A stretch of DNA of 24,350 nucleotides from the IMG/VR virus record IMGVR_UViG_3300032117_000152, positions 1 through 24,350 of that record; one strand, written 5' to 3'. The notes under the pieces are model-generated. The model saw only the letters and a program-made list of their open reading frames with translations, ran no database searches and was not told the DNA's origin. Shown one piece after another: positions 6,258-8,212 of the stretch (positions are counted from its first letter, which is position 1; each line of letters opens with the position of its first letter). The translations under genes were made by a program, and so were the position numbers. Source of the DNA: a virus.

Positions 6258-7226
6258 TTACGCCATCAACAGCTCTTTAGCGTGCGATTTCAGGCGGTTT
6301 CCATCTCCAAACCATGCGTTTGCAAGTCTGGAGTCAGATTCACGACCAGCTTCATGGTCAACGTACTCAGTAACAGCGTTCAACAAGCCCCATTTTGTCC
6401 CGCTTACGCCAGGCAAATCTGAACCACGTCCACGTCCGTCAAACAGCTCTAAAACAGCTTTGTAACCCTTTGATTCTTTCATTTCACCCGCTTTGAAAGG
6501 ATTTTGAACCATCGGAAATATCTGTTTCAAAAATTTGTCGACTTGCGCTTTTTTGACTGACTTGCGTGCCAAAAATCTGAAATCATCCATCATGCCTTCA
6601 AATCCGCTAACCGCAATACCAAGCTCATCACGCAACAAACTAGCATCAAAATATGAACCGTGTGTCAACTTAACACGACCAACATTTTTTTCGTTGTCTG
6701 CCATTGATATAGTGTTATTACACACAACACGAACGCTAGTGAATTGACCGATAGTGGCTGTTGAACCGTCAAACGATGTGGACAACAACAAATAACCTTT
6801 GACCATATCATCGTGCAATACACAGGCTTCTTTGTTAACGTTAGCAAGTGCCCAAATACGTTTACCGCCACGCAAACAACCAGCAACTTCTAATTTGAAA
6901 CCAGCAGACTGAACAAGCGTGTTAAAAAAATCTAATATTTCAGTAGGCTGATGGATTTTGTAACGCCCTGTCATTACGCCAAGTGATTCGTAATTGTCGC
7001 TACGATAAATTACGTTGCGACCAGAGTTCAGTTGAAGTTGTGTGTGTGCGGGTGTGTAGACAGCTGGGGCAATGAGTGCTTCCCAATTAAGACCAGCTTC
7101 AACGCTCCAAGTGTCGATTGATGCGTCAGCTGTTAGTTCTTGACCAAGACCGTGCCAGGGGGTTTGTCCAACAAATGCGATTTCAGCTTTGCCAGTGATC
7201 TTGTTTGTTTCGATTTCGTGTGCCAT
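6258..7226 (-). CDS. DUF932-family phage/plasmid protein
   Basis: A 322-aa protein, first gene of the minus-strand early operon. The N-terminus (AFVGQTPWHGLGQELTADASIDTW...AGLNWE), the central RYKIHQPTEILDFFNTLV, and VRVVCNNTISMA near the middle are diagnostic of the DUF932 (phage/plasmid-like TIGR03299) family. Length agrees. The biochemical role of the family is not established to my knowledge. The start has AGGAG exactly 7 nt upstream, and the promoter-operator pair lies just before it. The terminator right after the gene suggests it can be made alone early or in large amounts. Confidence 0.9.
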   Translation of the reverse strand: MAHEIETNKITGKAEIAFVGQTPWHGLGQELTADASIDTWSVEAGLNWEALIAPAVYTPAHTQLQLNSGRNVIYRSDNYESLGVMTGRYKIHQPTEILDFFNTLVQSAGFKLEVAGCLRGGKRIWALANVNKEACVLHDDMVKGYLLLSTSFDGSTATIGQFTSVRVVCNNTISMADNEKNVGRVKLTHGSYFDASLLRDELGIAVSGFEGMMDDFRFLARKSVKKAQVDKFLKQIFPMVQNPFKAGEMKESKGYKAVLELFDGRGRGSDLPGVSGTKWGLLNAVTEYVDHEAGRESDSRLANAWFGDGNRLKSHAKELLMA

Positions 7227-7274
7227 CAGATTTCTCCTAAAGTTTAAAAGACCCCAAAATCGGGGGGTGAAAGA

Positions 7275-7304
7275 ATTATAAGCTAACTTATATTCCCGAG
7301 TAAA
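7275..7304 (-). promoter_or_regulatory. Early leftward promoter for the DUF932 operon
   Basis: On the minus strand TTTACT (-35, 7304-7299) and a perfect TATAAT (-10, 7280-7275) are separated by 18 bp. The predicted transcript starts near 7268, about 40 nt before the DUF932 ATG. The -10 box is inside the palindrome at 7276-7293, so a bound repressor would block it. The sigma70 match is by eye. Confidence 0.65.
7276..7293. promoter_or_regulatory. Operator 1, TTATAAG-N4-CTTATA palindrome
   Basis: TTATAAG-CTAA-CTTATAT: a 6-bp perfect inverted repeat with a 4-bp spacer, nearly identical to the palindrome at 7342-7359. It covers the -10 of the leftward promoter. It is the likely binding site of the 51-aa HTH protein encoded next to it; binding is inferred. 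Confidence 0.65.
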
Positions 7305-7330
7305 GTTTAGGGTTATGTTTTGATTTGATG

Positions 7331-7360
7331 TTGGTAAAAACTTATAAGAACCCTTATAAT
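7331..7360 (+). promoter_or_regulatory. Rightward promoter of the repressor gene, leaderless transcript
   Basis: TTGGTA (-35, 7331-7336), 18-bp spacer, perfect TATAAT (-10, 7355-7360). The expected start of transcription, about 7 nt past the -10, coincides with the A of the repressor ATG at 7367, and there is no SD. A leaderless mRNA like lambda cI from PRM is implied. The -10 box lies in operator 2, which fits autorepression. Confidence 0.65.
7342..7359. promoter_or_regulatory. Operator 2, perfect TTATAAG-N4-CTTATAA palindrome
   Basis: TTATAAG-AACC-CTTATAA: a perfect 7-bp inverted repeat with a 4-bp spacer, 18 bp in total, overlapping the -10 box of the repressor promoter. Its centre is 66 bp from that of operator 1, roughly six helical turns, so two bound dimers would face the same side of the DNA. 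Confidence 0.7.
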
Positions 7361-7366
7361 TACAAC

Positions 7367-7522
7367 ATGGATAAAAAAGAATTGTGTAAATTAGCGGGTG
7401 GACAGACCAAATTGGCTCAGTTGCTGGGTATTTCCCAAGCGGCAGTTAGTCAATGGACATTGATTCCTATGGCGAGACAATGGCAGTTGCAACTTTTAAA
7501 GCCAGAGTGGTTCAAAAAATAA
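7367..7522 (+). CDS. Cro/YdaS-like HTH repressor, 51 aa
   Basis: One of the few plus-strand genes. The 51-aa protein (MDKKELCKLAGGQTKLAQLL...) has a compact HTH: GGQTKLAQLLGISQAAVSQW, with the turn at LGIS and recognition helix QAAVSQW, close to the Cro/YdaS pattern. The C-terminus (ARQWQLQLLKPEWFKK) is short, so dimerisation must use few residues. I chose the ATG at 7367 rather than 7325 because the upstream stretch contains the operator and -10 box. Divergent from the DUF932 operon and flanked by two palindromes, it is the likely switch protein controlling early transcription and itself. Confidence 0.82.
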   Translation: MDKKELCKLAGGQTKLAQLLGISQAAVSQWTLIPMARQWQLQLLKPEWFKK

Positions 7523-7538
7523 AAATTTAGCTTATAAT
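7511..7538 (+). promoter_or_regulatory. Possible promoter for the structured RNA
   Basis: CTTATAAT, the same octamer found in both operator/-10 boxes, recurs at 7531-7538. TTCAAA at 7511-7516 would be a 4/6 match to -35 with a 16-bp spacer. Transcription would start near 7545, just 5' of the structured RNA. Only one palindrome half is well kept (left half 4/7), so control by the same repressor is uncertain. Confidence 0.4.
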
Positions 7539-7544
7539 TAAGTT

Positions 7545-7640
7545 GTTGCCGTCGCACGCAATAGCTGAAGCCACTTACAGAAGTATCTTGCCCCTTGAAT
7601 AAGGGGGTGCGACCAAGGTACTTTTTTAAGTGGCTTTTTT
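7545..7640 (+). ncRNA. Structured small RNA with pseudoknot, ending in terminator
   Basis: A non-coding stretch with four compatible helices: P1 7568-7577/7627-7636 (10 bp), P2 7581-7590/7614-7623 (10 bp, one G-U), P3 7591-7596/7601-7606 (6 bp, GAAT loop) and a pseudoknot of GTCGCAC 7551-7557 with GTGCGAC 7607-7613 (7 bp). All bases from 7581 to 7623 except the 4-nt loop are paired. P1 is followed by a T-run, so the element ends as a Rho-independent terminator. It may be its own transcript from the TATAAT at 7533 or the 3' end of the repressor mRNA. I do not recognise a known RNA family. The 5' end is inferred. Confidence 0.65.
7568..7640 (+). terminator. Rho-independent terminator of the repressor/sRNA transcript
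   Basis: The outer stem AAGCCACTTA/TAAGTGGCTT (10 bp, perfect) ends in a run of six T at 7635-7640. It should end plus-strand transcription from the repressor promoter. On the other strand no T-run follows, so it would be a poor terminator for the late operon. Confidence 0.75.
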
Positions 7641-7885
7641 ATTTTGTGACGCATCCGTACCCCACACGGAGCAGAGTGTCTGAATGGACAGCTTGGGAGA
7701 AAACACCGCTAATCAGTTACACCCCTGATTTTGTGACCAGACTTGATTTAGGTACTGGTAAAGCACGATATAACTTAGGTGGAAAACTAGGTATCGTGTA
7801 TAAGATGAATAAATCCGTTATGCGCACTTAGTCTACTAATACTGGTAGATGGAGCTGGTTGGTACTATCCACCCTAGGAGAATCT
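7641..7885 (+). other. Non-coding leader region with several hairpins
   Basis: No convincing gene lies here on either strand. Small inverted repeats are present: TCCGT/ACGGA (7654-7670), TGTC/GACA (7677-7690), AATCAG/CTGATT (7711-7730) and an imperfect 9-bp stem 7844-7852/7865-7873 directly before the SD of the leader ORF. TACTGGTA is repeated directly at 7753 and 7840. TATAAC at 7769 and TATAAG at 7799 are poor promoter candidates without good -35 boxes. It could be the structured 5' UTR of the small membrane peptide. Confidence 0.4.
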
Positions 7886-7918
7886 ATGCCTAAAAAAAAG
7901 GACATTCAAAATGATTGA
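7886..7918 (+). CDS. Ten-residue leader peptide MPKKKDIQND
   Basis: A mini-ORF with a strong SD (AGGAG, 5 nt before the ATG). Its Lys-Lys-Lys-Asp codons contain the AAGGA that acts as SD for the membrane peptide, whose ATG (7911) lies before this ORF's stop (7916-7918). The two are thus arranged for coupled translation, as in mok/hok-type leaders. It is too short for composition tests; the SD quality and overlap are the evidence. Confidence 0.45.
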   Translation: MPKKKDIQND

Positions 7919-8018
7919 TACCATTTTATTTTTATTGATCGGTTTTCTGTTGGGAATGCTCTCGATCATTGCGGGTGCAATTTTTATTTGCTGGGCTGGG
8001 GGTTGGTCTGAAAACTAA
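7911..8018 (+). CDS. Small single-pass membrane peptide, 35 aa
   Basis: The 35-aa product starts MIDTILFLLIGFLLGMLSII, continues AGAIFICWAGGW and ends SEN. About 27 consecutive residues are hydrophobic, with a GxxxG-like spacing and a short acidic start and tail. AAGGA lies 8 nt upstream of the ATG, and the start overlaps the 10-aa leader. It converges on the last late gene with a 4-nt overlap at 8015-8018. Candidates are a type I toxin-like peptide, an exclusion protein or a lysis modulator; the sequence alone does not decide. Confidence 0.55.
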   Translation: MIDTILFLLIGFLLGMLSIIAGAIFICWAGGWSEN

Positions 8019-8212
8019 CGCATATTGGGCAGAGGTGCACTAGATTGATCCCTAGGGTGTGCTTTATCTGCGGGTAAACTTTCATGTTTTTTTAATTTGT
8101 CCGCAAGTCTGTGAATTTCGTTTTCATTTGCTTTTTCATGTTCACGCAAAACAACATAGTGTGATTTTGGTGATTTGTGTTCTTTGCCGCTGATTTTGAA
8201 ATTTGTTGCCAT
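8015..8212 (-). CDS. Small basic hydrophilic protein, 65 aa
   Basis: Starts MATNFKISGKEHKSPKSHYV, rich in Lys, His and Glu, no membrane segment; a central helix (NEIHRLADKLKKHE) is likely. AAGGA lies 6 nt before the ATG and the gene follows the endolysin by 9 nt. It is the last gene of the minus-strand late operon, convergent with the plus-strand membrane peptide. Function unknown. Confidence 0.65.
   Translation of the reverse strand: MATNFKISGKEHKSPKSHYVVLREHEKANENEIHRLADKLKKHESLPADKAHPRDQSSAPLPNMR

Follow-up and report, generated by a model that had tools for sequence, protein, structure and literature searches.

The 6S RNA of phage lambda, which lies before tR', is a leader RNA ended by an intrinsic terminator that is passed by read-through, and it precedes the late genes; no conserved pseudoknot is known from it. 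Kissing loops occur in plasmid antisense RNAs such as ColE1 RNAI/RNAII and FinP, while in transcription-terminating riboswitches a structured leader is joined to a terminator before genes. In phage HK022, putL is located just after PL, and putR lies ~270 nt after the PR start (PMC9378689).

Here, we describe RNA1, a predicted discrete RNA of ~95 nt in a window of 24,350 bases (the whole stretch of DNA that was analysed, an IMG/VR virus record). We read it, with a probability of about 0.5, as a cis-acting gate (attenuator) on an early phage transcript, formed by a kissing-loop terminator; the terminated product would be a stable sRNA. Like lambda 6S, RNA1 is short, promoter-proximal and terminator-ended, with genes behind it that would be reached via read-through only, but it has a conserved pseudoknot and stands before early genes. 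It shares with the plasmid RNAs short kissing hairpin loops, a 3' terminator hairpin and a loop sequence that varies between relatives; unlike them, it kisses within one molecule, and no antisense partner was found. As in terminating riboswitches, a structured leader is joined to a terminator before genes, whereas the folded part of RNA1 lies inside the terminator hairpin and does not compete with it, and there is no strong conserved antiterminator. RNA1 is similar in size to HK022 putL and putR, and like them it is predicted to put two stem-loops at, or shortly downstream of, the point where an early transcript begins. In contrast to the put sites, RNA1 has kissing loops, a U-run at the end of its second hairpin, a pseudoknot sequence that can vary freely, and no Rfam match. 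The put sites are the nearest functional comparison, by position and the two stem-loops.

Fold, promoter and terminator of RNA1

The features of RNA1 and its immediate upstream region are as follows (window coordinates):

7367 to 7522, + strand: 51-aa cro-like HTH gene 5' of RNA1 (PHROG 409/35, transcriptional regulator)
7511 to 7538, + strand: sigma-70-type promoter, TTCAAA, 16 nt, TATAAT (TATAAT at 7533-7538)
7545 to 7640, + strand: RNA1, a kissing-loop (pseudoknotted) RNA, with predicted +1 at 7545 and predicted 3' end within the T-run
7545 to 7562, + strand: P0 hairpin GTTGC[CGTCGCAC]GCAAT, helix 7545-7549/7558-7562, the loop being the 5' pseudoknot (PK) strand
7551 to 7557, + strand: PK 5' strand GTCGCAC, forming a 7-bp helix with 7607-7613
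7568-7577/7627-7636, + strand: P1, base of the terminator hairpin, 10 bp
7582-7590/7614-7622, + strand: P2, 9 bp with one G-U
7591-7596/7601-7606, + strand: P3 hairpin CCCCTT GAAT AAGGGG, 6 bp with a 4-nt loop
7607 to 7613, + strand: PK 3' strand GTGCGAC, a bulge separating P3 from P2
7635 to 7640, + strand: T-run of the intrinsic terminator (T5-T9 after GGC/GGT in 62/62 aligned copies)

The topology of RNA1 is that of a hairpin loop kissing the bulge of a terminator hairpin, with the bulge set between P3 and P2, and the 4-nt loop holds the only unpaired bases between 7582 and 7622. The first-pass annotation had drawn P1, P2, P3 and the 7-bp pseudoknot by hand and had likewise counted a 4-nt loop as all that is unpaired from 7581 to 7623; these helices lie where it placed them (P2 being limited here to 9 bp), but it had missed a fifth helix, P0, and the 5' PK strand is a hairpin loop. 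The MFE fold predicted for the trimmed RNA includes P0. Even the nested fold alone is unusually stable compared to dinucleotide shuffles (z = -6.7; 0/200 equally stable), and across the family the kissing helix is 7-9 bp long.

The best sigma-70 promoter has its -10 end 6-8 nt 5' of P0 in 56/57 distinct upstream sequences, versus 12% in shuffles, and therefore P0 should start at +1. The family consensus of the -35 side is TTGACA, with the full TTGACA in many copies. At the other end, a G+C-containing hairpin stands directly before the U-run, as in the definition of an intrinsic (Rho-independent) terminator. The promoter spacing and the T-runs of the family agree with the TATAAT and T-run recognized in the first pass, and a promoter and terminator of its own around a conserved structure would make RNA1 an independently transcribed sRNA gene. 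Varied palindromes overlap the RNA1 promoters in L062, L064, L085, L091 and others (for example ACACAA...TTGTGT, ACAAAC...GTTTGT and ACTTGTTCTAGCAAGT), as if distinct repressors acted on the same RNA1.

Relatives of RNA1 and covariation of its helices

Close copies of RNA1 were recovered with a 19-base pattern, one of them with a two-sided change in P3 (P3 of L001 reads CCTCTT/AAGAGG). Scans with neighbouring cro-like and DUF932-type genes gave diverged copies with wholly different yet matched pseudoknots (GTGGAAA/TTTCCAC at L041; GTAACGGTC/GACCGTTAC at L042), and a scan with a conserved motif just 3' of RNA1 gave ~100 further contigs. The covariance model R1 was made from 16 sequences, including the window, and without the pseudoknot; searched against chosen sources, it found 62 copies at E < 1e-8. 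RNA1 of the window, itself one of the 16 model sequences, scored 93.5 bits (E 1.8e-18). Extra pattern matches obtained with the window's own PK in the pattern (L011-L016) look like chance, and a generic script for kissing-loop terminators gave many 6-bp chance matches, of which only loci with further support were kept.

Among the 16 representatives, 97.0% of cells were paired and two-sided changes were found at 23/36 pairs, with 0/500 shuffles reaching this and slid controls at 38-51%. Across the 62 copies aligned by covariance model (52 distinct), 96.9% of cells were standard pairs with two-sided changes at 24/36 pairs; 0/500 shuffles matched the observed values, the number of pair types excepted, and slid controls were at 41-52%. 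By helix, the 62 copies were paired at 98.8% in P0 (two-sided changes at 2/5 pairs), 99.8% in P1 (4/10), 93.2% in P2 (9/9) and 95.0% in P3 (4/5). The pseudoknot, to which the alignment was not fitted, was paired at 97.0% with two-sided changes at 5/7 pairs, and its strands comprise 15 different 7-base sequences in the family. An unsupervised helix scan of the same alignment recovered P1, PK, P2 and P0 along with two weak 5-bp alternatives, while P3 fell under the cut-off of that scan, though 95% paired in the pair-by-pair count.

A chance fold is excluded because the helices covary, and a chance pseudoknot in particular is refuted by the covariation in both the representatives and the full set of copies. 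This bears out the first-pass view that the structure is hard to get by chance, and the compensatory changes it had proposed to look for in relatives were found in P1, P2, P3 and the pseudoknot alike. Comparative evidence of this kind shows RNA1 to be a genuine RNA element of phages, and a new phage-encoded pseudoknotted RNA family as judged against Rfam 15, in line with the earlier failure to match it to a known family: the window gave 0 matches at gathering threshold, positions 7280-8020 gave 0 at E<=5, and nine relatives of RNA1 gave 0 at gathering threshold. A tRNA/tmRNA search found none. No tandem repeats were found in 7200-8100 and RNA1 is present as a single copy per phage record, unlike a type III toxin-antitoxin RNA (ToxI-like), in which a pseudoknotted RNA is repeated in tandem ahead of a toxin gene.

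Could RNA1 be an ordinary intrinsic terminator behind cro, with a pseudoknot that is functionless or due to chance? P1 with its T-run is indeed a standard terminator, but we regard this as very improbable, given that 97% of cells keep the pseudoknot, that five of its seven pairs show two-sided changes, and that the element has its own promoter at a fixed distance. The rate at which the kissing helix changes raises another alternative, in which it is a fast-diversifying specificity element: copies of RNA1 would interact as dimers or by kissing between phages, and phages would diverge to avoid or block each other, as with plasmid incompatibility RNAs. Among pairs of copies <5% diverged outside the PK, the PK differs at 0.10 per site, versus 0.01-0.05 in the other helices and 0.13 in the unpaired linker, while its pairing is retained to the same 97% even though each change needs a change in the partner strand. 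L062 and L103, for instance, differ by 1.4% outside the PK and at 6/14 sites within it. Neutral compensatory drift combined with sequence constraint on P1 and P2 would give the same pattern, however, and no partner RNA was found for RNA1; we consider such a specificity role quite unlikely.

Distribution of RNA1 in phages

The RNA1 family belongs to bacterial viruses known chiefly via environmental DNA. More distant relatives (type C) scored 38-46 bits with R1, and larger relatives (type B), with the same kind of pseudoknot by inspection, were missed by R1 (for example L023, L061, L077, L079, L105, L116 and L131). DNA comparison of the window region with named phages yielded nothing beyond chance matches of 34 nt, and a search of plasmids only a match of 38 nt. 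One metagenome-assembled genome (MAG) carries RNA1, on an 8.8-kb contig (L183), this being the one true RNA1 among 20 pattern matches in a genome-contig scan of bacteria. When L183 was used as a DNA query against named phages, it had one real relative, MW202484.1, a named GenBank podovirus from Manatee Spring, in which RNA1 scores 69.5 bits with R1. Within the bacterial family of that MAG, 300 additional genomes gave no R1 match under stricter filters, and RNA1 is therefore not widespread as a prophage or host RNA. Each phage record searched has one R1 copy, antisense echoes aside. RNA1 is phage-borne. Solely from the name of the MAG contig, we infer Comamonadaceae as the host group.

RNA2 and the genes behind it

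RNA1 is followed by another conserved structured RNA, with these features:

7655 to 7832, + strand: RNA2, ~180 nt, with its own pseudoknot 7745-7750/7810-7815
7863 to 7888, + strand: conserved RBS-side element (ACTATCCACCCTAGGAGAATCTATG) 3' of RNA2
7911 to 8018, + strand: ORF of 35 codons for a putative membrane protein, the sole + strand ORF after RNA2 hereabouts, with no PHROG match

RNA2 is represented by 82 distinct sequences; its 27 pairs are 99.1% paired, 18 of them with two-sided changes, and the pseudoknot between loop 7745-7750 and 7810-7815 is intact in 25/25 at every pair. It has no match in Rfam. The CWAGG of RNA2 covaries with CCTWG in the RBS-side element (75 vs 7 sequences), and RNA2 possibly extends to that element.

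An RNA1-type element lies directly 5' of RNA2 in 79/79 copies with enough upstream DNA. An automated test for a terminator plus pseudoknot was positive in 78/79; the strand that it reported is sometimes another repeat, and in such cases the R1 match carries more weight; the 79th case, L114, has an R1 match at 79 bits with one mispair. The first-pass annotation had placed RNA1 beside the phage switch, and cro is indeed upstream in the window, but it precedes RNA1 in some relatives only, whereas RNA2 follows in every copy checked; RNA1 is thus not mainly a companion of the cro switch. No promoter was found in the 60 nt before RNA2 (median best score of 2.6 versus 3.9 in shuffled sequences). Since RNA1 is always 5' of RNA2 with no promoter between them, RNA2 and the genes behind it need read-through of RNA1.

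Most RNA2 copies have same-strand early genes behind them, with a replication-initiation-like gene in 115/123 contexts (redundant contigs counted). The lineage of the window has its replication-type genes elsewhere and just the 35-codon ORF behind RNA2, L042 has RusA, and in MW202484.1 the RNA1-RNA2 cassette sits after a replication-type gene with another ORF behind it. Because the genes behind it differ, the cassette is a module not bound to one gene. In MW202484.1, the annotated hypothetical protein UOF77725.1 (33533-33892; L223:3827-4186) covers RNA2 entirely and RNA1 for the most part, and its annotation as a gene is probably wrong.

This variety of downstream genes would also suit a different role, in which RNA1 is mainly a trans-acting sRNA or a protein-binding decoy early in infection, the terminator serves just to form its 3' end and RNA1 and RNA2 stay together by inherited order. 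In favour of this, RNA1 is a discrete unit with a predicted +1 at P0, a terminal terminator and almost all conserved bases in helices. We give this clearly less than an even chance: RNA1 has no conserved single-stranded seed, and its apparently perfect linkage to RNA2 is unexpected for a free trans gene.

Two stem-loops that open an early transcript at its +1, or that follow cro, with an early operon behind them, also recall an HK022 put-type antitermination RNA, in which two 5' stem-loops bind the beta' zinc-binding domain of RNA polymerase so that terminators are ignored, its own included. Both HK022 sites are similarly placed, and pairing in putL begins with the third transcribed base (PMC9378689). 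That RNA1 works in this manner nevertheless seems unlikely to us, as its second stem-loop is itself followed by the T-run in every aligned copy, the PK sequence varies freely and Rfam, where it has no match, does not place it.

RNA1 as a predicted terminator gate

We prefer the cis terminator gate over a free sRNA mainly because RNA2 has to be reached by read-through. Helix covariation, promoter spacing, the T-runs, linkage to RNA2, the early genes behind it and a second locus of the same architecture (see below) all favour it, as does the close positional parallel in HK022 (PMC9378689). RNA polymerase coming from the RNA1 promoter, or from upstream (cro), would transcribe RNA1, which would fold while emerging, and would mostly stop at the T-run to leave the stable ~95-nt sRNA. 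Termination would be partial or regulated, and the read-through fraction would continue into RNA2 and the early genes. The kissing helix may lock the hairpin in a fixed three-dimensional fold that sets termination efficiency, or that a protein, or RNA polymerase itself, would recognise.

Any regulation of the gate would act through a bound protein, polymerase modification or termination efficiency and not through a refolding switch. In the 62-copy alignment, only two 5-bp alternatives reach >=90% pairing, compared to the 10-bp P1, and this lack of a strong conserved antiterminator argues against an RNA switch that regulates the gate. An attenuator or riboswitch with mutually exclusive folds was accordingly rejected, as no strong conserved pairing that would break the terminator was found; the first-pass idea of a switch between pseudoknot and termination is not supported in the form of mutually exclusive folds, with all helices conserved together.

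Besides the lack of such a switch, two observations weigh against a cis gate. The window lineage keeps RNA1 without replication-type genes downstream, where a purely cis regulator might be lost, and a hairpin at +1 of a fully structured RNA also suits a trans-acting sRNA. We infer both the gating and any role in trans. With RNA1, the phage RNAs gain a family that is strongly supported by comparison; at ~95 nt it is small enough for structure determination, and at an early operon it stands in front of another structured RNA that is likewise uncatalogued. How phages gate early transcription by RNA alone, and why a kissing helix would change faster than the other helices of one RNA, become questions open to experiment.

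Similar architectures elsewhere

R1 also gave weak matches to another RNA that these phages carry (L145, L165 and L170), and a scan with the ORF behind that RNA gave 29 loci (L194-L222). These represent a second kissing-loop terminator RNA, for example:

L195 (contig of L145), 1715 to 1802: second kissing-loop terminator RNA
L221, 2906 to 2999: second kissing-loop terminator RNA

The 29 loci have five matched pseudoknot sequences (TCGCGT, TCTAGC, TCGCGCC, TTGCGCC and TCGCACC), and the promoter gap is 6-8, as for RNA1, in the four upstream sequences tested. In this family a conserved 74-aa ORF follows the RNA; its AAAGGG Shine-Dalgarno is part of the P1 3' strand, 8 nt upstream of the ATG. L145 has both RNA1 and this second RNA. 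A bolder proposal is that RNA1 is the first member of a new class of kissing-loop terminators, placed at several operon starts, whose kissing helix is more than a structural clamp: it would be selected to diversify, as a recognition code that gives related phages specificity in superinfection or co-infection. We think this improbable as a whole.

Two further arrangements were observed in these searches. At L029:3800-3880, a hairpin (P0 CGCAT/ATGCG) has the loop GTACTAG, which can kiss CTAGTAC, the loop of a terminator-like hairpin (CCCTCGA/TCGAGGG followed by TTTT), so that here the kissing partner is a loop and not a bulge. A likely structured leader RNA, closed by CCAAGACGCATGG...CCAGCCGTGTTGG, is found just after cro in L024, L025, L027 and L028 and 5' of terminase genes in L170; after cro it stands behind a plain terminator, as RNA2 stands behind RNA1.
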